Below, one piece after another: positions 45,177-56,335 of a DNA stretch of 64,000 bases. Position 1 is the stretch's first letter, and each line of letters starts with the position of its first letter. The notes under the pieces were generated by a model. That model worked only from the letters and a program-made list of their open reading frames with translations. It searched no databases and was not told where the DNA came from. The position numbers and the translations under genes were made by a program. This stretch comes from Methanosphaera sp. ISO3-F5. GTDB taxonomy: Archaea; Methanobacteriota; Methanobacteria; Methanobacteriales; Methanobacteriaceae. The DNA lies in the NCBI RefSeq assembly GCF_034480035.2, contig NZ_CP118753.2, forward strand, positions 124,001-188,000. The letters run 5' to 3'.

Positions 45177-45353
45177 GCAAATATTTCTTGTTTAATCTTC
45201 TTTTATTTTTAATTTTTAGAATTAATTAAATTAACAGCTTATTTTTTATCTAAAAAAAGATAATTTTTTTAATTTATACTTAACTATGCATATCTATTTT
45301 TTATACATAAAAAGTTAATTTTTGTGAACTATTGTAAAAAGAAATTAGTCTGA

Positions 45354-46382
45354 TTATAAATCACAAAAATCATTTCTGGCTTTTATCATAGCTTGTATAT
45401 TTTTTAATTGTGTGTTTGGGGAGATCATGCACCCTGGACTAAGAATGTCTATTCCTTTGCCTAATATATTTAATGTTTCATTATAAATTTCTTTTGGAGT
45501 TTTTCTAAACAATGTTTCATTAGTAGAAATATTTCCACAGATTCTAGTTTTTGTGTTTAATTCTGCTTGTATCTGTTTAGCATAAGTAATATCTACCTTT
45601 TCAGCAATACTTATTCCTTCAAAACCACAAGTTAATACTTCTTTTAGTGTAGAAGTTATGTCTCCACAGATATGTAATACGGTGGGTGTCTTTGAATAGT
45701 TTGCTAACTCTTCTAGAAAAGGTTTTAATATTTTTTTGAATAAATGTGGTTCTAATATTGATTGTGTAGCATTAGGTTCATAGATTGCGATGATATCAAT
45801 GCCTATCTCATCATAGAATTTAATTTCTTCCATTAGACCTGTTGTAATAGAATATAATGCATCTTCAACATCAACAATATTTGTATTTAATTGTTTTATA
45901 ACACCTTCTAGACCTTCGTAGTAAATTTGTCCTAAGAGTGTGAATGGTCCTACTATGGAACCGATTATTGGAATTTCCTCATTATAATTATCTGTTAAGA
46001 TTTTTGTTGCTTTTTCTAAAGTAGGAAATCTTGCATTATTTGTAAAATCTTCGGGTATTTCTATGTATTCCATTTGTGTAAATGGTGTATCTATTATTTC
46101 TTTGGTATTTGTTTCTTTTAGTTTAACAGTGCATCCTAATGCCTCTGCTTCAAAACATAAATCAAAAGGTAATGCTATACTTTCAAATCCACAATATTCA
46201 TGGCTTATGGAGGCTATTTTTGCTATTTGTTCGGGATCATTATGTAATTGTGGGAAAGTTATATTGTTTTTTTTAGTTATTTCTGTTAGATTTACTGCTG
46301 AAAATGTAGTGCAGGGTATCCATTCTATTTCATTTAATGTTAATGAGTTATATAAATTGTTTTTTGTATTAATTTTAATCAC
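45354..46382 (-). CDS. MtaA-like methylcobalamin:coenzyme M methyltransferase paralogue
   Basis: A 342-residue protein of the MtaA/uroporphyrinogen decarboxylase fold. The zinc ligands are visible as LHICG (His and Cys) and the downstream Cys in LSPGCMISP. FDLCFEAEALGC and PIIGSIVGPFTLLGQ match the neighbouring MtaA. Such enzymes move the methyl group from a corrinoid protein to coenzyme M. It starts with GTG at 46382 and lacks a clear ribosome-binding site, the GTGAT itself being the start. It lies 46 bp after the other copy and is more diverged. Confidence 0.85.
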   Translation of the reverse strand: MIKINTKNNLYNSLTLNEIEWIPCTTFSAVNLTEITKKNNITFPQLHNDPEQIAKIASISHEYCGFESIALPFDLCFEAEALGCTVKLKETNTKEIIDTPFTQMEYIEIPEDFTNNARFPTLEKATKILTDNYNEEIPIIGSIVGPFTLLGQIYYEGLEGVIKQLNTNIVDVEDALYSITTGLMEEIKFYDEIGIDIIAIYEPNATQSILEPHLFKKILKPFLEELANYSKTPTVLHICGDITSTLKEVLTCGFEGISIAEKVDITYAKQIQAELNTKTRICGNISTNETLFRKTPKEIYNETLNILGKGIDILSPGCMISPNTQLKNIQAMIKARNDFCDL

Positions 46383-46428
46383 GATTTATATTCAATTTAT
46401 AAAAAGAAAAAAAGTTTGGGGATGGGGA

Positions 46429-47451
46429 TTATATTCCAAAGTATTCGTTTCTTGCTTGAACCATTGCACGTACGTTTTCTGCTGGTGATAATGGTGCAAT
46501 CATACATGCTGGTAATAATACTCCTACATTTTTGTCTAGTGCTACTTTTACTTCTTCTTTTACTGCTTCTGGTGATTTCATGAATAATGTATCTGTTACT
46601 GAAATGTTTCCACATACTACAGTATCTGAACCTAATCTTTCACGTACTGCTTGTGCTTCGTTTATGTCTACATCATCTGCAATACTTATTCCCTGGTAAC
46701 CGGTACTTAGCATGTTTTCTGCTTGTGGAAGTGAGTTTCCACATATGTGTAATACCATTGGGATGTCGGAGGTATCTGTTAGTTCTTCATGTAGTGGGTT
46801 TAATAATTGTTTGTATAATGGTGGTGCTAATAGTTCTGGTGCTCCGTTTGGTTCATATAATACGATTGCATCCATATCTAATTCATTATATAGTTCTATT
46901 TGTTCAATTAAAGCAATGTTTACTTCATCTAATGCATCTTCAACAACATTTATTTTTGTGTTTATATCTTTTAATACTCCTTCTATTCCTAGACATTGTC
47001 CTAGAACGGTTAATGGACCACTCATTGCTCCTACTATTGGTACGTCTTTATCATCATATTTTTCATGTAATATGTTGGTTGCTTCTACCATTGCAGGGAA
47101 TCTTGCATTGTGGATGTAGTCTTCTGGTGCTTCGAATGTTTCTATGTCGAATGGACAGTTGATTGTTGATGATGAGTTGTCATGATCAGTTAGTGCAATT
47201 TCACATCCTAATGCATCTGCTTCGAAACATAAATCGAATGGTAAAACCATACTTTCTAATCCTACATGTTCGTATGCACTTGCTGCAATTGTTGCCATGT
47301 CTTCAGCATCAGTATGTCCTTTTGGCCAGGAAACTCCTTCTTTTTCCATTAATTCTATCATACATGTTGCGGGAAAAGATCCTACTGGAGTTACTTCATT
47401 ATCTTCTGTTGTTAATGCTGCTATTAAATTATCTCTTAAATTAAGATCCAT
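46429..47451 (-). CDS. mtaA: methylcobalamin:coenzyme M methyltransferase MtaA
   Basis: A 340-residue enzyme for the last step of methanol activation, transferring methyl from MtaC-bound cobalamin to coenzyme M. Zinc ligands lie in VLHICGNS and LLPACMIAP. FDLCFEADALGCEI, PIVGAMSGPLTVLGQ and YEPNGAPELL are typical. ATG at 47451 is preceded by GTGATG; the GTG at 47460 is that ribosome-binding site. GC content and codon bias are higher than in the downstream copy, suggesting it is the main, highly expressed enzyme. mtaB and mtaC are not in the window. Confidence 0.92.
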   Translation of the reverse strand: MDLNLRDNLIAALTTEDNEVTPVGSFPATCMIELMEKEGVSWPKGHTDAEDMATIAASAYEHVGLESMVLPFDLCFEADALGCEIALTDHDNSSSTINCPFDIETFEAPEDYIHNARFPAMVEATNILHEKYDDKDVPIVGAMSGPLTVLGQCLGIEGVLKDINTKINVVEDALDEVNIALIEQIELYNELDMDAIVLYEPNGAPELLAPPLYKQLLNPLHEELTDTSDIPMVLHICGNSLPQAENMLSTGYQGISIADDVDINEAQAVRERLGSDTVVCGNISVTDTLFMKSPEAVKEEVKVALDKNVGVLLPACMIAPLSPAENVRAMVQARNEYFGI

Positions 47452-47951
47452 ATACATCACATCTATTTATTATTATGAAACTCAGACGATTATCCTTTTT
47501 TCAATTACCAATAGTAAACCAATTATTTTTTTTTTAAACACTCTGGAGTTATTATATGTATAATGTTACACATTCTTTAAATTCTAATAATCGTATGAAT
47601 TTCTACTTAATAGTATGTTTAACCTATTATTCATATTTTTTAACAAATTTTAAGACAATTTAAAGCTTAAAAATCAAAATAAGTTGTTTATATCAATTTA
47701 TTATTTTTAATTTTATAATCAATTTCAAATATTTTTTTATAGATTAAATTATGATTATTTACTTAAATTTAAAAGTTAATACATATTTTGAAATTTTTAT
47801 ATTTTTTCAAATATACTGTTTATATTATAAAAAAATATGTTACTCTAAGAAAAAGATGGTGGATACAATGATAATAAATAAAATATATTTCTAAAAAAAT
47901 TAAAAATATAATATAAAAAAGTATATAATAAAACATTAAAGTTAAAAGATA
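47452..47951. other. non-coding AT-rich region between mtaA and a FilR1-like regulator
   Basis: About 490 bp without a credible gene. On the minus strand it includes the mtaA promoter, with a TATA-like ATTATACATATAATA near 47560. The long leader leaves room for operators. A tiny frame at 47869 with a GGTGG site codes only 8 residues and is discounted. Confidence 0.55.
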
Positions 47952-48773
47952 TTAAACATTATTTAAAATTAAATATGTGTCATCTGACATGGATTCAATT
48001 TCTTCAAATAATTTATTTCCCCATTCTATAAATTTCGGATCATGGGAAATAACTCCAGCATTAGTATCATATGTTTTATTATTATTATATAAAACAAACA
48101 TTACCTCTTCTTCGGATATAGCTAAAGATAACTTAATATTTTCAACCGATTTAACTTTAACTGTCCTATTTTTCAAGGGACTAGATTTAATCTCCTTTTT
48201 GTTCTGAATTAAAAATTCTTTAATATTATCTGGTACTAAAATTTTTAATTCAGTCGTTGTATCTGAATCAATTTCAGTTGTTTTCCTAAATTCAGGATGT
48301 ACATGCGTGAAAATAATTTTAACACTTTTTTCTGATGTCATATTTTTGGTAAAGTTATTGACTACTTTGTATGGATTTAAAGGTGTATTATGTATGATTT
48401 CATAGTTTTCACTCAAAGGTAATTCTTCAAGAACTTTTATTTTATTATTTTTCACATAATGATGATTAATATAATCTTCAAAACAATCTATATTTTCAAT
48501 AGTTTTGTTTAAATAAAGTAAATTTATCATCTTCTTTTTAACTGAATTTTTTATATGGTATTTATCGTTTAATTTTGTTATTAATCCATTTTTCTCTAAT
48601 TGTTTAATGTTGCTTGATATTGAACCGTAATTGATACCCTTATCACTTAATTCTCTTGCATTCAAATCGGATTTACATAAATTGGACAAAATCTTCAATT
48701 TTATTTCTGATCGCACCATAAATTTAATCTCTTTTTGAATTGTATCATATTCCGTTATATCTTCAAATACCAT
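47952..48773 (-). CDS. winged-helix regulator with FilR1-like (DUF1724) domain
   Basis: A 273-residue archaeal transcription factor. The N-terminal winged helix covers about residues 20-80 (IKLKILSNLCKSDLNARELS, then YGSISSNIKQLEKNGLITK). The C-terminal 170 residues follow the FilR1/DUF1724 pattern of methanogen regulators. ATG at 48773 follows AAAGGTGTATAG. It is 500 bp upstream of mtaA on the same strand and divergent from a second regulator of the same class. Related Methanosarcina Msr proteins control methanol methyltransferase genes, so a similar role is a reasonable inference. Confidence 0.78.
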   Translation of the reverse strand: MVFEDITEYDTIQKEIKFMVRSEIKLKILSNLCKSDLNARELSDKGINYGSISSNIKQLEKNGLITKLNDKYHIKNSVKKKMINLLYLNKTIENIDCFEDYINHHYVKNNKIKVLEELPLSENYEIIHNTPLNPYKVVNNFTKNMTSEKSVKIIFTHVHPEFRKTTEIDSDTTTELKILVPDNIKEFLIQNKKEIKSSPLKNRTVKVKSVENIKLSLAISEEEVMFVLYNNNKTYDTNAGVISHDPKFIEWGNKLFEEIESMSDDTYLILNNV

Positions 48774-48972
48774 TCTATACACCTTTTGTATACTGTTTTA
48801 ATTTTTATTTTTATTTATTTATATTGTATGAGGTGTTTTTTGTCAATTTTACTTTATTTTTCTTAAATTTTATTTTTAAATCACTAATATCGCACATTTT
48901 ATATTTTAATTATGATATAGATAATATTAATAAGAATTCTAGCTAACATATAATAAAATTTTGGGTGATTTT

Positions 48973-49794
48973 ATGGGATCTGATGAAAATTTATTATTTA
49001 ATCAACAATCGTTTGAAAAAATACAGTATTTTTTAACTAGTACTTTTCGTGTAGAGATTTTGTTGGAGTTGTATGAATCAGATAAAACAGTTAAGAATCT
49101 TAAAGAAATTCTTAATAAATCTGAAAGTAATATTTTACATTACTTAAAAGACTTTGAAGATAAAGATCTTATTGAACGAAATAAAGAGTTATACACTTTA
49201 ACTTCTAAAGGTTATTTCACAATCAGACATATTGTTAAACTAATCAGTAACTGGGGAAGTATTAATTCCAATTTAGATTTTTGGGATAATCATTTATATG
49301 ATAAATTACCTTTACCATTTGTTTTAAATATGGAATTATGGGATAATTCTTCAATAGTAGAAAATGATAATCTCGATTATAATAAGCCATCCCATGTTTA
49401 TTCAGAATTAATATCAAAATCTAAGCATATAAAAGTAATATTGCCTGTATTATCCACATATCATTTAGAAGCAATTCTAAATTCACTAGAAAAAAATGAT
49501 GGAACATTAGACTTAATTACATCTAATATCCTTTTAAAAAATATATATGCCTCCGAGCTTCATGAAAGGTTTTTTAAACTAAAAGGTAAAGGAAAAATCA
49601 GATTATGGGCAGTAAATCAGGGAAGTAGATTGAATAAATTTTTAACTTGTACCGAAAAATTTTCATCATTATTCCTAATATATGATAATGGAGTTTATGA
49701 TGACTCCGTAATGTTATTAAACGAAGATAAAACGAATGTTAAAAAATTAAATAATTTATTTGATTCATATAAAGAAACTACGCATCCTCAATAG
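48973..49794 (+). CDS. second winged-helix regulator with FilR1-like (DUF1724) domain
   Basis: A 273-residue protein with the same architecture as its divergent neighbour: winged helix at about residues 20-75 (FRVEILLELYESDKTVKNLK, NILHYLKDFEDKDLIERNK) and a C-terminal FilR1-type domain with YSELISKSKHIKVILPVLS and the tail ending in LNNLFDSYKE. ATG at 48973 follows GGGTGATTTT; TTG at 48961 overlaps that site. The two proteins are clearly diverged, so they probably sense different signals or bind different promoters. Confidence 0.78.
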   Translation: MGSDENLLFNQQSFEKIQYFLTSTFRVEILLELYESDKTVKNLKEILNKSESNILHYLKDFEDKDLIERNKELYTLTSKGYFTIRHIVKLISNWGSINSNLDFWDNHLYDKLPLPFVLNMELWDNSSIVENDNLDYNKPSHVYSELISKSKHIKVILPVLSTYHLEAILNSLEKNDGTLDLITSNILLKNIYASELHERFFKLKGKGKIRLWAVNQGSRLNKFLTCTEKFSSLFLIYDNGVYDDSVMLLNEDKTNVKKLNNLFDSYKETTHPQ

Positions 49795-49836
49795 AATTTA
49801 TCTGATCAAATTAATATTTTGAATGAAGGAATACAC

Positions 49837-50964
49837 ATGAATAAAATAGTTTTACTTTCAAATTATCTTAGAAAAGAAGGAATGCCAGTAAGTATTAGAA
49901 GCACGTCATTAGCAATGGAAGTAGTCGAAACATTAGGTAAATCAATGACAGTTAACGAATTATATAACTCACTGAAAGTAATATATGTTAAAAACCTCGA
50001 AGACTATGATAAATTTGACAGAGTTTTCAATAAAATTTTTACAAACGTAAACATAAAATCTAGAAAAAATAACAGAAAAAAACAGGATCATGAAGAAGTA
50101 GTACTAGAAGAAGTAACTGGTGAAGACTTAATATTTAATCAAAATGAAGATCTAGACCAACTTGAACAATTATATGATGAAATGATAGAATATAACTCTG
50201 AAACTAAAGCATCTCAGGGAAAATTAGTCAATCAAAGTATGTTACTATTAGATAATTTTGATCAAAGATTATTTGAGTTATGCAAAAAACTCAGCAGAAA
50301 AATAGCCAATAAACGTTCAAAAAGAAGAAAAAAGAATAACTCGCACCATATTGACATGACTAGAACAATCAGGGCAAACATAAAAAATGGGGGACATATA
50401 ATGAAATTAATATATGATAAACCTCCGATGAAAAAGACAAAACATATCTTTCTATGCGATGTTAGCGGATCCTGTGAATGGGTTACATCCTGGTTTTTCT
50501 TATTATTATACGGATGCATAAACACATTTGATAAAGTAAAAGTATATGACTTTGACAACAGATTAATTGATGTAACAGATTTATTACTAAATGAACACTT
50601 TGGAACTATAGGACAAGTAAATGTAGCACAACGTAGCAAGGGAATATTATGTTATGGACAATCAGACATGGTAAAATCATTTAAAGAATTTCTTGATGAG
50701 GCAGAAATAACTCATCGTACTGATATCATTATATTAACCGATTGCAGGGACTGGAAAGGAAAACGAGTAAATGGAGTATTAGAAAGTGCAACACTCATGA
50801 AACATATGGTACAAAAAGCAAATCGTGTCATAATATTAAATCCTGAAAAGAAAATTAGGTGGAATAATGCCACAAGTTGTGTACAAGACTACGAAGATGT
50901 AGGAGTCGAAATATACGAAACTTCTAGTCTTGATAAATTTGAAAAAGTAATAAGTCAATTATAA
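49837..50964 (+). CDS. VWA-domain protein, CoxE-like
   Basis: A 375-residue protein. The N-terminal half is helical and charged. The C-terminal half is a von Willebrand A domain with the metal-ion site DVSGS in HIFLCDVSGSCEW, and TDCRDWKG as a further metal-coordinating loop. CoxE-type VWA proteins normally work with a MoxR-type AAA ATPase to insert metals or remodel complexes, but no MoxR gene is adjacent. ATG at 49837 follows AAGGAAT; TTG at 49819 is possible but weaker. Confidence 0.82.
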   Translation: MNKIVLLSNYLRKEGMPVSIRSTSLAMEVVETLGKSMTVNELYNSLKVIYVKNLEDYDKFDRVFNKIFTNVNIKSRKNNRKKQDHEEVVLEEVTGEDLIFNQNEDLDQLEQLYDEMIEYNSETKASQGKLVNQSMLLLDNFDQRLFELCKKLSRKIANKRSKRRKKNNSHHIDMTRTIRANIKNGGHIMKLIYDKPPMKKTKHIFLCDVSGSCEWVTSWFFLLLYGCINTFDKVKVYDFDNRLIDVTDLLLNEHFGTIGQVNVAQRSKGILCYGQSDMVKSFKEFLDEAEITHRTDIIILTDCRDWKGKRVNGVLESATLMKHMVQKANRVIILNPEKKIRWNNATSCVQDYEDVGVEIYETSSLDKFEKVISQL

Positions 50965-51188
50965 ATTCACCAATCCTTTTTTTAATATTTTTTATTTTAA
51001 TAGTTAGAAGTAATCTTTTCTTATTTTAAAAGAAGACAATAATAAACTCTCCTGTAAATCACAGATTATAAAATATCGCAGATCCAGCATATTTCTTCTT
51101 ATTTAAATTTTAACAGAAACTGTATTATAACACACATATAAGACTATTTAATATGTTATAATTATGATATAAGTACTGATATAATTAT

Positions 51189-51830
51189 CTACTTATTCAA
51201 TAGTAATTCTGGATGTTCTAAGTATTGTTCTACTTTTTCATAGAATAATTTGAAATGATATCCAAATATGAATACATGGCTTGCAGTTAATGAAATAGGG
51301 ATTTTTCCATCAACTAGTTTTCCCCAAGCTATAACGGGCATTAATTGGTTAGGTGAGGCTATGATGTTGGTCATTGAGTCAAAGTTTATCCAAGGAATGC
51401 AAGATAAGTTACATATAGGTAGTATGTCTCTTAATGATGGCTCAACTAGGAATTGATTGTTTTCTATATTTTTTTTCTTATTTTCTATATATTCATTATA
51501 TTTTTCTAATGATCCTAGTTCTGAAAGAGGGGGGATTTCTATTTCTCTAATGCTATGGTCTTCTTGCATTATTGGACTAATAGCATTTATCTTTTCATAC
51601 TCGTAGACTTTGCCATCTATTATTCTTCTTTTAAATTCAGGTATTTCATTTATTGCTTCTAAGATGCATGATGCAGTCATGTTGAAGAAAGGTATGTTAT
51701 TTTTTTTAGAATATGTATATGTTTTTTGAGCATTTACTCTTACTGTCATGGAGTATCTTGATGTTAGAAAATCTTGGAAAGGTAATTCTTCTACTTTAAT
51801 ATCTAATTCTGTTTTAGGATATTGACCCAT
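51189..51830 (-). CDS. chloramphenicol acetyltransferase-like protein with altered active site
   Basis: A 213-residue protein with the CAT fold from N-terminus (SRYSMTVRVNAQKTYTYSKK) to C-terminus. The segment IPWINFDSMTNI and the final ISLTASHVFIFGYHFKLFYE correspond to the CAT catalytic loop HHxxxDG. The His five residues before the Gly is kept, but the first His is Ser and the structural Asp is Phe. It may acylate a different substrate. Start ATG 51830 follows AGGAGAATAATAAA. It is a single gene. Confidence 0.75.
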   Translation of the reverse strand: MGQYPKTELDIKVEELPFQDFLTSRYSMTVRVNAQKTYTYSKKNNIPFFNMTASCILEAINEIPEFKRRIIDGKVYEYEKINAISPIMQEDHSIREIEIPPLSELGSLEKYNEYIENKKKNIENNQFLVEPSLRDILPICNLSCIPWINFDSMTNIIASPNQLMPVIAWGKLVDGKIPISLTASHVFIFGYHFKLFYEKVEQYLEHPELLLNK

Positions 51831-52212
51831 TTTATTATTCTCCTTTTTGTGCTAAATTATATATACTTTATTTTATAAATAATCATATAATAAATTTAGG
51901 AAATTGAGAAATATGTGTATATCAGTAGCAGTATTTGCTTCTTTAATTAGAATATAATATTCGATTTTTTGTTGAATTAATGAAGATTAATTAAAATTTA
52001 AATATAAGGGCACTCGCTCGACAATTTTTAAATCAAATACTCACTGTAATCATTCTAAAATGCACATATTTACTTATTTAATGCTATTTTTTTTAGAAGA
52101 TTATATTATTATTTGCATTGTTATTATATTAAAATATTGTCCATATATTTACTTTTTAATTAATTTTTATTTGTATTTTAGAATTTTATATGTTATTTAA
52201 GGAGTAAATTAT
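51831..52212. other. non-coding region upstream of the MATE gene
   Basis: About 380 bp of AT-rich sequence without a gene. One short GC-rich patch (GGGCACTCGCTCGAC, near 52008) stands out. AAGGAG at 52199 is the ribosome-binding site of the MATE gene. Confidence 0.5.
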
Positions 52213-53613
52213 ATGAAAGAAAAATTTTCAAAAAGAGAAGAAACTGAAGGAGTAAATTTATTAAGAGGAAATCCAAAAGAAGCAGTACTAAAATTATCAA
52301 TACCATTGATGTTATCAATGATGATAATATCGTTATATAATATTATTGACTCTTTTTGGATAGCAGGATTAGGGGCAGATGAATTAGCTGCAGTAGGATT
52401 TGTCATACCACTTGAATTTTTAATAATCAGTATAGGAACATCAATGGGTGCAGGTATAACATCTGTTGTATCAAAATATATTGGACAAAAAGATGATAAA
52501 ATGGCTGATAACTCAGCAACACATTCAGTCATATTGTCATTAATAGTCTCCATAATTGTAACGGTTATATTTACAGTTTTCATGAAAGAATTACTTATTT
52601 GTATGGGTGCAAGAGGCATGGCTCTTAATTATGCAATGCAATATGCACGTATATACTTTGTAGGAAGTATATTTGTTGTAATGCCAAATGCTTTATATGG
52701 GCTGCTAAGATCAGAAGGAGATAACAAACGTACAATGTATGTAATGGTATTTTGTGCAGTAATAAATATGATACTTGATCCAATATTTATATACTCACTT
52801 GATATGGGAATGTTTGGAGCAGCATTATCAACGGTATTATCATTAATAATGGTGCTTTTTGTAATAATCTACTGGATTTACATCAAAAAGGACACTTATC
52901 TAAAACCAACATTATCTCACTTTAACTACAAACCGGAAATATTCCGAGATATACTAAAAGTAGCCATTCCATCTATATGTGAGATGATATTTATAACATT
53001 TATCACAGCTATGATGCACTTTATAATACTTGCAGTATCAACAACAGATTCAGTAGCAGTATTTGAAAATGGATGGAGAATGGTAACACTTGCAACAGAA
53101 CCAATGATGGCAATATCTGTTGCATTAATCTCAATAATTGCAACAAACTATGGAGCACAAAAATATGAAAACATGAGGATAGCTTATAATTACTCTATGA
53201 AAATAGGAACAATATTAGGTGTACTATCATTAGTAGTATTTTTAGTATTTGCACCACAAATTGCATACATATTCTCCTATGGAGAAACAAGCATAAGACT
53301 ATTTGAACCAACAGTAGAATTCTTCCACATATTTGCATGGTTCTTCATAGTGTTCCCAGGAGGAGTAATATCCACATATATGTTTCAGGGTCTCGGAAAA
53401 GGGACAACGTCTCTTATATTCACAATAATCAGAGAAGCAATATGTGCAACACTGTTTGCAGTACTGTTTGGAGTAATACTAAAATGGGGAATAAATGGAG
53501 TATGGTTTGGAATTCTTGTTGGATATACTATTGGAGGATTAATAGCAATAATATCTGCAAATAACTATTTAAATAAACTAGTAAAAGAAAATAAAACAGA
53601 AAATACCTCTTAA
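52213..53613 (+). CDS. MATE-family efflux transporter
   Basis: A 466-residue membrane protein with 12 predicted helices in two similar halves. It starts with the MATE pattern LLRGNPKEAVLKLSIPLMLS and has DSFWIAGLGADELAAVGF, GAGITSVVSKYIGQK and FQGLGKGTTSLIFTIIRE. MATE proteins export cationic drugs or metabolites by Na+ or H+ antiport. It is closest in style to the NorM/DinF group of methanogens and clostridia. A clear terminator follows. Confidence 0.92.
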   Translation: MKEKFSKREETEGVNLLRGNPKEAVLKLSIPLMLSMMIISLYNIIDSFWIAGLGADELAAVGFVIPLEFLIISIGTSMGAGITSVVSKYIGQKDDKMADNSATHSVILSLIVSIIVTVIFTVFMKELLICMGARGMALNYAMQYARIYFVGSIFVVMPNALYGLLRSEGDNKRTMYVMVFCAVINMILDPIFIYSLDMGMFGAALSTVLSLIMVLFVIIYWIYIKKDTYLKPTLSHFNYKPEIFRDILKVAIPSICEMIFITFITAMMHFIILAVSTTDSVAVFENGWRMVTLATEPMMAISVALISIIATNYGAQKYENMRIAYNYSMKIGTILGVLSLVVFLVFAPQIAYIFSYGETSIRLFEPTVEFFHIFAWFFIVFPGGVISTYMFQGLGKGTTSLIFTIIREAICATLFAVLFGVILKWGINGVWFGILVGYTIGGLIAIISANNYLNKLVKENKTENTS

Positions 53614-53629
53614 TATTTCCAATCAATCA

Positions 53630-53666
53630 GTTGGCTACCATTTATAGCCAACTCCAACTCTTTTTT
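53630..53666 (+). terminator. hairpin terminator after the MATE gene
   Basis: GTTGGCTA (53630-53637) pairs with TAGCCAAC (53645-53652), a GC-containing 8-bp stem in an AT-rich region, followed by TTTTTT at 53661-53666. Confidence 0.7.
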
Positions 53667-53838
53667 AATTCAATTTTAATTATAATTCTTTGAATACATT
53701 TAATTAATAATATTCATTAAGTATATATGATTAAAAATAGGTAATTATTCATATTCCTATCTAAATATAAAAATCGCAAAATGATAAAGAACATCATTTC
53801 AAGTAAGAAGATAGAGGGGGGGGGAACTGTAAAACTAC

Positions 53839-54128
53839 CATTTATGCATATTAACAGACTTTGAAGAACTAACAATACATGATACAACAATAAAACCAGA
53901 TAAAAACCAAAGTGCAAGCATAGAACGAATTAAATGCTACAAACACATAGAATACATAGAAATTGGTGAAATGTACAACATATTCAGTAAAAACGTAGTA
54001 CTAAGTAAAATTTGATAACTATGCAAACAGCATAACATGACAAAAAAGGAACCAGTACAAGATAAATGTATAAATCCGATTTTGATTATTTTTTGGAAGA
54101 ATTTGATGATAAATTTAAAAAGGAATGA
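53839..54128 (+). pseudogene. fragment of a type IIG (Eco57I-like) restriction-modification gene
   Basis: A frame with an upstream stop reads LCILTDFEELTIHDTTIKPD and then ERIKCYKHIEYIEIGEMYNIFSKNVVL, matching the N-terminal region of fused endonuclease/methyltransferases (LTDFEE-x-YDxRIKP... IYNxFSKEAV). After one shift it continues FDNYANSIT, then TKKEPVQDK, and after another DYFLEEFDDKFKKE before TGA. At least two frameshifts and a missing start show decay. A run of nine G (53816-53824) lies directly upstream. Confidence 0.7.
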
Positions 54129-54172
54129 ATAGGATCAGTTTATATGATTATAATATATTATGGAGGCTAAAA

Positions 54173-54649
54173 ATGTCTAAAGAATCTGAAATATTTTTAA
54201 GAAAAATGTTTAATTATTTTAAAGAAAATAACTCTAAAGGAAGATATTTACATTATATGCCCGAAAAAGAGTTTTCTGAAATATTGGCACCGTTAACAGA
54301 TTTTTTCAAAGAAATGGATTATGTTACTTATGATTCTAAAAAAGCTACAATCACGATGATAACTAAATCAGGCCAAGTATATGCTCTTAAAGATATAATC
54401 TCTTTTAATAATAATTATTCAGAGGACCTCTGTATTATTGGTGTGGGTAATAAAGTATCATCAGTTAATCATGATGCAGGTGGTGCAGTTATTGGATTTC
54501 AAGTAAACATACAGAAATATAAAGAAATTATAGAGGAATATGGTTATGATCCAGACTTTGAAGATAACGATGAAGAATTGGATGAGGAATATATTGACCG
54601 TATTTTGTCTTTATTTAAATCAAATAATATTAAAAAGCAAGATATTTAA
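54173..54649 (+). CDS. hypothetical protein
   Basis: A 158-residue acidic protein, probably alpha/beta, with a basic helical N-terminus (ESEIFLRKMFNYFKENNSKG) and an acidic C-terminus. No motif recognised. GGAGGCT precedes the ATG at 54173; the in-frame ATG at 54125 lies inside the restriction-gene relic and is rejected. It faces a toxin gene on the opposite strand, 15 bp from its end. Confidence 0.6.
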   Translation: MSKESEIFLRKMFNYFKENNSKGRYLHYMPEKEFSEILAPLTDFFKEMDYVTYDSKKATITMITKSGQVYALKDIISFNNNYSEDLCIIGVGNKVSSVNHDAGGAVIGFQVNIQKYKEIIEEYGYDPDFEDNDEELDEEYIDRILSLFKSNNIKKQDI

Positions 54650-54664
54650 TTATATCTTATTTTT

Positions 54665-54943
54665 TTAATATTTTCTGTAAATATTTGCTCTATCATCCAC
54701 ATCTATAAATTCAACAAATTTTTTCTTAGTATTAACATAGTATACTATTCTATAGTTTCCAACTCGATATCTTTTACATTTTGGACATTTTTTACTTTTT
54801 AATTGTCTATTTGTTGAATTGAATGGATTTTTGGTTATAATGTCTAAACTATTGAGTATATTGTCATATAGTTCTTTATTTGTTTTTGAGTATTTTGATA
54901 GCTTTTTTAAGAATAATTTTGTTGGTTTTTTAGAATATTTCAT
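54665..54943 (-). CDS. RelE/ParE-superfamily toxin
   Basis: A 92-residue protein with the RelE fold order: helical N-terminus (KLFLKKLSKYSKTNKELYDN), then RQLKSKKCPKCKRYRVGNYRIVYYV and the C-terminal DVDDRANIYRKY. The RVGNYRIVY strand and final basic tail are typical of mRNA-cleaving or gyrase-targeting toxins. A CPKC motif before the core strand is unusual. It overlaps the antitoxin gene by 4 bp (ATGA). Confidence 0.8.
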   Translation of the reverse strand: MKYSKKPTKLFLKKLSKYSKTNKELYDNILNSLDIITKNPFNSTNRQLKSKKCPKCKRYRVGNYRIVYYVNTKKKFVEFIDVDDRANIYRKY

Positions 54944-55206
54944 ATTGTGCCTTCAGATTCTAATCTTTCTAGTTCTTCATCAATGTTATCAAAGTCTACT
55001 TCGATTATATCACTGTAATCTTCATTTTCTATTTTTTCTATGCATTTGTTATAGTAGTCTGCTTGATCATCTTCAAATTCTTCAGAATATTGTTCGTTAT
55101 GTTCATTAATTAATTTGAGAATAATGTCATTGTATGTATCTTTTTTATTACCTATTTCTGATAACATTGAATGTACTTCTTGTGTTACTTTAATTGTTTT
55201 CATCAT
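54940..55206 (-). CDS. antitoxin of the RelE-type pair
   Basis: An 88-residue acidic protein. The N-terminus (KTIKVTQEVHSMLSEIGNKK, then DTYNDIILKLINEH) is a ribbon-helix-helix-like DNA-binding segment of the VapB/DUF7557 kind. The rest is very acidic, as expected for the part that wraps the toxin. ATG at 55206 follows GTGAG. Three direct repeats and a palindrome upstream (55409-55522) are candidate operators. Confidence 0.78.
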   Translation of the reverse strand: MMKTIKVTQEVHSMLSEIGNKKDTYNDIILKLINEHNEQYSEEFEDDQADYYNKCIEKIENEDYSDIIEVDFDNIDEELERLESEGTI

Positions 55207-55408
55207 ATTTCTCACTCATTATTATTGTTTACACATTTTATTCTTAGTTTTATTTTTTCTATTATTTATACTTGGTGTACTTTTTCTCCTTCATTTTCAT
55301 TTTTTCATTACTTTTATAATTTGATATTACTTCATGTATATGTAATGGTTGATTTTTACTATTTTAGTAAGTTTTCTATTTTTCAATATTTTTCATAAAA
55401 TGAGTTTG

Positions 55409-55522
55409 TTACTTTTTGTCTTCTGAGTGGTTAACATTTTTTTGTATTACTTTTTAGCTTAAATTCACCTAAAAAGTATTACTTTTTATCTATATTATTT
55501 CGTTATACATAGATATAACGAA
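55409..55522 (-). promoter_or_regulatory. direct repeats and palindrome upstream of the toxin-antitoxin operon
   Basis: On the minus strand, AAAAAGTAA-type units occur at about 55409, 55446 and 55482. The last is part of the symmetric AAAAAGTATTACTTTTT. Farther out, TTCGTTATA (55499-55507) and TATAACGAA (55514-55522) form a perfect 9-bp inverted repeat. The same AAAAAGTATTACTTTT core is also the rebuilt target site of the IS4-type element at 8608. Confidence 0.45.
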
Positions 55523-55852
55523 GTAAACTTTCAAATTTTTCTTTTGATCAAAAATTCTTCCAAAAATAGGGGTAATTTAGATTCATTTTTCATATATGAC
55601 ATATACACCAACAACTTAATATTTCGATTTTCAGACATACATTGCAAGTGTAACTACTATTTTTCTCATTTTCTACTTTATCTTTCCTACTATAAAAAGG
55701 AGTATCTTTTTTTCATTTTACTAAACTCGTTTATCCTCTCTAAAAATTTATATTTTTTATATTAATCATAATATTTTTATTTTCTATAACATCAATAATA
55801 AAATATAAATAATTTTAATTTTATAATTCTGTAAAATATTAAGTTGATCGTA

Positions 55853-56001
55853 ATGAATTCACGTTTCAGATGAAGTTCATAGAATTATAACAAACATGGA
55901 TAATAAAAAACAATCTTATAATGACATAATATACTGATAGAAAAAATATGGTCATGGAAGAATTTTCTGAAGAAGAATCTATAATTATTCAATATCTTTA
56001 A
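55853..56001 (+). pseudogene. antitoxin gene relic
   Basis: The frame at 55863 reads VSDEVHRIITNMDNKKQSYN and then DIIY followed by TGA. It matches the intact antitoxin at 54940-55206 (VTQEVHSMLSEIGNKKDTYNDII). The ATG at 55853 is out of frame with it, and an acidic tail MVMEEFSEEESIIIQYL follows in another frame. No toxin remains next to it. Confidence 0.6.
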
Positions 56002-56070
56002 ATAATAGCAACAAGAGATTTTACTGATAAAAACTTAGTCTTATATGAATCATTTTTTTTTAATATTTTT

Positions 56071-56335
56071 GGATTTGTTGTTCATTTTTTGAATACGTTT
56101 TTTGTTGTTTTTATTTTGGTTTTTTGTTTATTTATTTGTTGGGTATTGTTTGTATGTTGTGTTTTATTTTAATGGTTTTGTTTTTATTTTGGTTTTTGGA
56201 TTTGTTGTTCATTTTTTGAATACGTTTTTTGTTGTTTTTATTTTGGTTTTTTGTTTGTTTATTTGTTGGGTATTGTTTGTATGTTGTGTTTTATTTTAAT
56301 GGTTTTGTTTTTATTTTGGTTTTTGAATACGTTGA
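56071..56335. repeat. 127-bp GT-rich tandem repeat, just over two copies
   Basis: GGATTTGTTGTTCATTTTTT begins at 56071 and again at 56198, with near-identical sequence between. A third partial copy starts about 56318. The plus strand is almost free of C and has little A. Frames through it are low-complexity Phe/Val/Leu and are not believable genes. Confidence 0.85.

Follow-up and report, generated by a model that had tools for sequence, protein, structure and literature searches.

The chromosome of Methanosphaera sp. ISO3-F5, a strain from sheep rumen (genome 2,680,162 bases, chromosome 2,506,044 bases; PMC11008217), carries two methanol methyltransferase-like genes beside two regulator genes of the FilR1_middle (DUF1724) class, which raises the question of whether these regulators control their neighbours. 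The locus lies in the 64-kb stretch of DNA analysed here (chromosome 124001-188000, hereafter the window, whose numbering is used), and its genes are named mtaA1, mtaA2, FilR-A and FilR-B (Table 1). Genomes are designated by G handles, ISO3-F5 being G000, and loci by L handles. The reading that we favour, with somewhat more confidence than doubt, is that of a strain-variable cassette in which FilR-A and FilR-B regulate mtaA2-mtaA1 locally via a putative operator block. All four open reading frames (ORFs) named in a first-pass annotation of the locus, two of mtaA type and two encoding DUF1724 regulators, were found, and the profile matches agree with these assignments.

FilR-A and FilR-B reach 65.0 and 44.4 bits against PF08350 (FilR1_middle; cut-off 27) and are the only matches to this family in the ISO3-F5 genome. 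Both combine the FilR1_middle/DUF1724 domain with an N-terminal winged helix. The helix-turn-helix of FilR-B is matched by HTH_5 at 27.9 bits (cut-off 22), and that of FilR-A emerges only from a profile built on 12 A-clade proteins, for which HlyU was the best match in the PDB (E 0.00076). Profile searches of the PDB with the regulators returned winged-helix proteins only (HlyU and ArsR types) at E <= 0.001. AlphaFold2 run on the single sequence of FilR-B gave a mean predicted local distance difference test (pLDDT) of 42, too poor for a structure search. The description of the regulators as divergent agrees with their head-to-head orientation and with their 22% identity over 262 residues. They had also been treated as two similar genes, and are instead the two members, A and B, of an old pair.

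PF08350 is present in 133 of 151 genomes of the phylum, and the family is therefore not tied to methanol. The FilR tree contains 56 proteins, 27 of the 29 ORFs from Methanosphaera (fragments of 137 and 171 amino acids were dropped) and 29 genes of other genera, from 14 regions chosen among the matches listed. It separates into two clades, A and B, and the two families in which the pair was observed (f1 and f3) are represented in each; a third family of the order, f2, gave no PF08350 match in four genomes. All 27 adjacent pairs in the tree consist of one clade A and one clade B protein, and two of the 56 rows are unpaired, a lone FilR-B in G002 and a long-branched single gene on the A side in G148. 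Judged from these sequences, the A/B split is older than the divergence of the two families carrying it, and the two kinds, neighbours since the early history of the order Methanobacteriales, have remained so across duplications. Outside Methanosphaera, A immediately precedes B on one strand in 14 of 14 pairs. Inside the genus this order holds for 9 of 13 pairs, and the four exceptions are the window-type pairs of G000, G013, G014 and G017, which are head to head. Distances in the A-tree and the B-tree correlate with r 0.905 (best of 2000 shuffles 0.307), and within Methanosphaera with 0.885 (reached by 0 of 5000 shuffles); co-inherited neighbours give high distance correlations anyway, and the size of r is not itself the point. 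Seven of eight other-genus regions with a gene that we take to be glyS-like have the pair between this gene and the same second neighbour, and no mta gene was present in these stretches.

The FilR loci of Methanosphaera are found near mtaA genes far beyond expectation. Among 20 Methanosphaera genomes, 29 FilR matches were detected in 12 genomes at 16 loci, and at nine of these loci, which are not mutually independent, an MtaA match is no more than 5 kb away (0.40 loci expected). The window-type arrangement, with genes of the mtaA2 clade, is present in G000, G014 and G017, and decayed in G002 and G003. A tandem-type arrangement with a long-form MtaA is located between the mtaABC operon and an amidase gene in G001 and G012, and a third FilR type stands beside a long-form MtaA in G015, with remnants in G019. 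The G019 stretch (L081:10711-12785) holds a FilR-B fragment that adjoins a broken long-form MtaA, both left over from a further FilR-MtaA cassette. Window-type regulators and the mtaA2 clade occur together in six genomes (G000, G002, G003, G013, G014 and G017), the mtaA2 clade alone in one (G004), the regulators alone in none, and 13 genomes lack both (Fisher p 0.00018); counting the near-identical G002 and G003 as one genome changes the figures to 5/1/0/13 (p 0.0005). Both regulators and the mtaA2-clade gene of G013 are on separate short contigs. In G002 and G003 no FilR-A match is left, FilR-B is truncated in G003, and mtaA2 carries a stop in G002 and is truncated in G003. Taken together, these comparisons support a link between the regulators and the mtaA genes.

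A candidate site of action is located in the 491-bp interval between FilR-A and mtaA2. Within this mostly poorly aligned interval, a block of 88 bp is kept in G000, G014 and G017, with ungapped scores between these genomes of 50.0, 65.6 and 32.6, all above 100 shuffles each (largest 21.0). Its core matches at 33 of 36 and 30 of 36 positions in the other two intact-cassette genomes, and is followed by an A-rich TATA-like stretch and by a leader of about 150 nt to mtaA2. Because the core runs directly into the TATA-like stretch, we infer that the block occupies the position expected for the binding site of an archaeal activator. In G017 a transposase gene separates FilR-A from mtaA2, and the block stays beside mtaA2. 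The core is single-copy in the ISO3-F5 genome at up to 3 mismatches, and a profile of the block, scanned against the window and 40 stretches, gave three sites at 38.9-45.1, with the next best at 19.7. The block was not found 5' of mtaA2 in G002 or G003 (20/36 each, whole region) or in G004 (22/36). These findings point to control of the extra mtaA copies by the pair without proving it. The idea of the first-pass annotation that the regulators control the mtaA genes is thereby upheld as a link, through proximity at 9 of 16 loci, co-occurrence, joint decay and the block within 47452-47951; its further proposal, a switch between isozymes, is allowed as a hypothesis only.

Two other candidates were rejected. 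The promoter region between the regulators was considered as a shared operator and was not above shuffles in any of four comparisons, and a mini-ORF within the block of G000, read by eye, is not kept in G014 or G017. Upstream of the operon mtaA, a conserved element AATAGTCTTRTACTCACA was observed, which precedes the called start by about 150-240 nt in five genomes and by about 370 nt in a sixth (G008); the regions are L082:6509-6930 and matching parts of L065, L071, L094, L096 and L090.

Several results weigh against local control of mtaA2 by the pair. G013 possesses both regulators and an mtaA2-clade gene, and the block is not above chance there (24/36; largest shuffle 27). The genomes G000, G014 and G017 group as a single clade in the tree of mtaA2 genes, and common ancestry thus accounts for some of the conservation of the block. 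Conserved blocks are also present 5' of the operon mtaA and of the long-form mtaA in genomes without an adjacent FilR, and such a block is therefore no sign of FilR by itself. G004 keeps mtaA2 and has no FilR match at all in its genome. Outside Methanosphaera, the regions fetched around 14 A/B pairs contain no MtaA gene, and the 12 mtaA stretches contain no FilR gene; the older role of the pair was therefore something else.

The distance of other-genus pairs from mtaA also favours an alternative in which the A/B regulators act mainly elsewhere, with the mtaABC operon or redox genes as possible targets, and their proximity to mtaA reflects frequent joint duplication and shuffling in unstable regions. 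The seven of 16 Methanosphaera FilR loci that have no MtaA match closer than 5 kb, five of them adjoining a gene of one nitroreductase cluster, fit this alternative, as does the position of the cassette within an 11-kb block without a match in the same-species draft genome G010. Nonetheless, FilR types track particular MtaA types, some of them decaying together, G000 and G017 share the aspS/hisD site of the cassette, and every genome with the block 5' of mtaA2 has both regulators intact; we consider regulation mainly elsewhere unlikely. Two of the seven loci are on short contigs (about 5 kb at most), and another, G001:C10, lies less than 2 kb from a contig end. At the five loci not on such short contigs, an A/B pair stands beside the nitroreductase-cluster gene (L066:9114-9668, L068:8229-8792, L070:5669-6232, L077:7514-8071 and L080:9504-10067; Pfam checked for L068).

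Local control by FilR-A and FilR-B, the reading preferred here, would work as follows. A duplicated copy of the old two-protein regulator would act locally on a Methanosphaera-specific MtaA-like pair. Both FilR-A and FilR-B would be required, probably as a heteromer, and would bind the predicted operator block directly upstream of the TATA-like element of mtaA2. Binding would change the transcription of mtaA2, and of mtaA1 by read-through, in either direction, upon a signal sensed by the FilR1_middle domains. The MtaA-like enzymes would be active zinc methyltransferases that receive the methyl group from a shared MtaC pool.

By analogy with the pairs MsrA/MsrB and MsrD/MsrE of Methanosarcina, FilR-A and FilR-B probably act jointly at the block in setting the level of mtaA2 and mtaA1. 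MsrA and MsrB of M. acetivorans are reported to act jointly on mtaCB1, and losing either can prevent expression (PMC3960522, PMC11218639); MsrD and MsrE likewise act jointly on mtaCB2 (PMC3960522). At least MsrC and MsrX are described as having helix-turn-helix and DUF1724 domains (PMC11784639). The resemblance lies in paired regulators of methanol methyltransferase genes, with both members needed for one target as reported for Msr, and the one-A-one-B pairing is consistent with such a need. In contrast to the Msr proteins, the regulators of the window adjoin MtaA-like genes and not mtaCB, and their genes are head to head. The Msr-like build proposed earlier thus holds as a likeness of function and domain and implies no orthology; the tree set consists of proteins of the order Methanobacteriales. 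FilR1 of Methanosaeta harundinacea, namesake of the FilR1_middle domain carried by the window regulators, is reported to bind promoters of methanogenesis genes and is described as the cognate response regulator of the kinase FilI (PMC3991700), whereas the window proteins show no receiver domain in the Pfam scan.

The putative target genes encode MtaA-like proteins that are 42% identical to each other. Both mtaA1 and mtaA2 pass the cut-off of NF004889 (PRK06252, methylcobalamin:coenzyme M methyltransferase; cut-off 244) with 281.3 and 262.6 bits. They do not reach those of the MtaA equivalog NF040654 (288.4 and 310.9 bits; cut-off 400), which the operon mtaA of ISO3-F5 narrowly misses at 395.2 bits, and of the MtaA/CmuA family TIGR01463 (217.8 and 220.0 bits; cut-off 235.4). 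Similar to MtaA (PDB 4ay7/4ay8), with full-length alignments to 4ay7 at 4.6e-58 and 2.1e-51, they possess H, C and C at the positions that we take to be zinc-binding, as do 38 of 39 Methanosphaera rows, the remaining row being cut before the last Cys. Besides scoring below the equivalog cut-off, they differ from MtaA in standing outside any mtaBC operon and in having YEPN where operon MtaA, solo MtaA and 4ay7 have (V/I)ADP.

The two genes had been noted to differ in codon bias and divergence, and the measurements bear this out. With methanol operon genes as reference, the codon adaptation index (CAI) is 0.78 for mtaA2 and 0.60 for mtaA1, beside 0.84 for the operon mtaA, and the regulators reach 0.48 and 0.50; a slightly altered reference set gave 0.74 for mtaA2 (rank 3 of 43 window ORFs) and 0.56 for mtaA1 (rank 18 of 43). 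The codon bias of mtaA2 is that of a major methanol gene. When ISO3-F5 is compared with two orthologues, the nonsynonymous divergence (dN, NG86) amounts to 0.07 and 0.10 in mtaA2, and to 0.31 and 0.30 in mtaA1 (among the three orthologues, 0.07-0.10 and 0.30-0.34), so that mtaA1 changes three to five times as fast. Omega is 0.11-0.13 for mtaA2 and 0.23-0.33 for mtaA1, values to be taken as a rough guide, with the synonymous divergence (dS) near saturation for mtaA1 and saturated or not computable for the regulators.

Five MtaA-like genes were found in ISO3-F5, together with a weak sixth match (22 bits) and three mtaB genes. The genome search with PF02607 detected three corrinoid proteins, each beside an mtaB, and none beyond those; five coenzyme M methyltransferase-like proteins therefore share three MtaC-type corrinoid proteins. 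At E <= 1e-60, MtaA is present in 34 of the 151 phylum genomes, with 1-7 matches in each of 18 Methanosphaera genomes and exactly one in each of 16 others. Twelve of the 16 non-Methanosphaera stretches were fetched with flanks, and nine have the order mtaB-mtaC-ramA-mtaA, where ramA is our presumed name for a gene with RACo domains; two others end at a contig end and one has ramA and mtaA without mtaBC. In the MtaA tree the window genes belong to a 26-row clade (support 100/99) that consists exclusively of Methanosphaera paralogues outside the operon, and on the present data the expansion of MtaA therefore appears Methanosphaera-specific. Four homologues of each mta subunit had been reported in M. 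stadtmanae (cited in PMC6120340). The tree contains 39 of 43 clustered ORFs (four fragments of <=190 amino acids were dropped, and one row of 642 amino acids with unknown residues was cut to 300). Of 69 MtaA matches stronger than 1e-15, 39 are tree rows, four are behind the dropped fragments, 20 were typed by best match, none of them nearest to mtaA2 or mtaA1, and six were not fetched; these six score >400 bits, unlike any gene of the mtaA2 clade. An uncharacterised family of about 160-215 amino acids (e.g. L065:5824-6426, L096:7367-7975 and L186:5324-5881) was observed in 11 of the 12 non-Methanosphaera mtaA stretches, directly facing mtaA in ten; it also occurs in five Methanosphaera operon loci, is absent from the operon stretch of ISO3-F5, and gave no Pfam match for the two members scanned.

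The number and codon bias of these genes bear on a true substrate-dependent switch, in which mtaA2/mtaA1 replace the operon MtaA under one condition, such as low methanol or high H2. The CAI of mtaA2, near that of the operon mtaA, and the three MtaC available to five MtaA-like proteins are in favour of such a switch, as is the report that MsrD and MsrE are activators of one mtaCB isozyme and repressors of another (PMC3960522). However, the genome search at up to 3 mismatches and the profile scan revealed no second copy of the block at the operon promoter, and we consider a switch rather improbable. That mtaA1 and mtaA2 are methyltransferases of the URO-D family with another donor or acceptor, no longer part of the methanol pathway, would suit their scores under the MtaA and MtaA/CmuA cut-offs, the YEPN motif and the fast evolution of mtaA1, but is hard to reconcile with the retained zinc ligands, the lack of a PF02607 corrinoid protein in the genome besides the three beside mtaB and the strong constraint on mtaA2, and seems to us quite doubtful.

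Table 1. Features of the FilR-mtaA locus in the window of Methanosphaera sp. ISO3-F5
Feature	Position	Strand	Description
mtaA1	45354..46382	-	MtaA-like methylcobalamin:CoM methyltransferase, fast-evolving paralogue
mtaA2	46429..47451	-	MtaA-like methylcobalamin:CoM methyltransferase, strong codon bias
Conserved block 5' of mtaA2	47597..47684	-	core 47646-47681; putative operator and promoter
FilR-A	47952..48782	-	FilR1_middle (DUF1724) and profile-level winged helix; clade A
Regulator-regulator intergenic region	48783..48960		head-to-head, 178 bp; no conservation above shuffles
FilR-B	48961..49794	+	winged helix and FilR1_middle (DUF1724); clade B
VWA/CoxE-like protein	49819..50964	+	24 bp 3' of FilR-B

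The mtaA2 ORF as listed extends to 47460 (GTG). The likelier start, judged from the sequence context, is the ATG at 47451-47449, 4 nt after a GTGAT ribosome-binding-like site, and the same arrangement is found in G014 and G017. In all three genomes the start of mtaA1 reads GTGAT-NNNN-ATT (window 46370-46382, L074 about 2834 and L079 about 10981), so mtaA1 would start either at the GTG inside the site or at an unusual ATT. The gap of 46 bp between mtaA2 and mtaA1 is T-rich, and mtaA1 is therefore either co-transcribed with partial termination or separately promoted. The Rfam scan of the window at gathering score detected one tRNA only and no riboswitch. Folding of the mtaA2 leader RNA gave z -1.98, and 10 of 200 shuffles fold equally well or better.

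The VWA/CoxE-like gene is possibly co-transcribed with FilR-B, and its membership of the unit is uncertain. The usual partner of VWA/CoxE-like proteins is a MoxR ATPase. Genes for such proteins stand beside non-canonical MtaA genes or their regulators in three genomes (the window; L074:612-1739; L100:643-1767).

The cassette is strain-variable, because its genes are missing from the same-species draft G010, with the caveat that this draft is incomplete (93% complete): neither a FilR match nor either cassette mtaA was found in it. Contig C157 of G010 is 98% identical to the window up to 45269 and then differs over its last 372 bases, and the high-identity match restarts at 56235 on a different contig. 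The stretch 45270-56234 (about 11 kb), for which G010 gave no high-identity match, includes the cassette, the VWA gene and genes for a CAT-like acetyltransferase and a MatE transporter. In G000 and G017 the cassette is at the same aspS/hisD site.

Methanosphaera lives on methanol and H2 in the rumen and gut, and its mtaB mRNA is reported to rise steeply after feeding, at a time of high H2 (PMC10658910). Among the open-licence papers that our searches listed, we found no account of the control of methanol genes in Methanosphaera, and no earlier description of the one-A-one-B rule in Methanobacteriales, of FilR-mtaA cassettes or of the conserved block. Msr control of methanol genes is already known from Methanosarcina. 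For Methanosphaera, the locus provides candidates for a regulator pair and its operator, together with a target. A broader model, which we hold only tentatively, is that FilR-A and FilR-B are subunits of an obligate heteromeric archaeal transcription factor from the early Methanobacteriales; when Methanosphaera came to live on methanol alone, it would have multiplied MtaA and the pair, several mtaA paralogues obtaining their own A/B copy and operator, and this modular design of one pair per isozyme may also underlie the Msr pairs. The one-A-one-B pairing predicts that a single FilR subunit would be inactive without its partner. If true, such interdependence of subunits would be a simple explanation of why both MsrA and MsrB, and both MsrD and MsrE, are needed in Methanosarcina.

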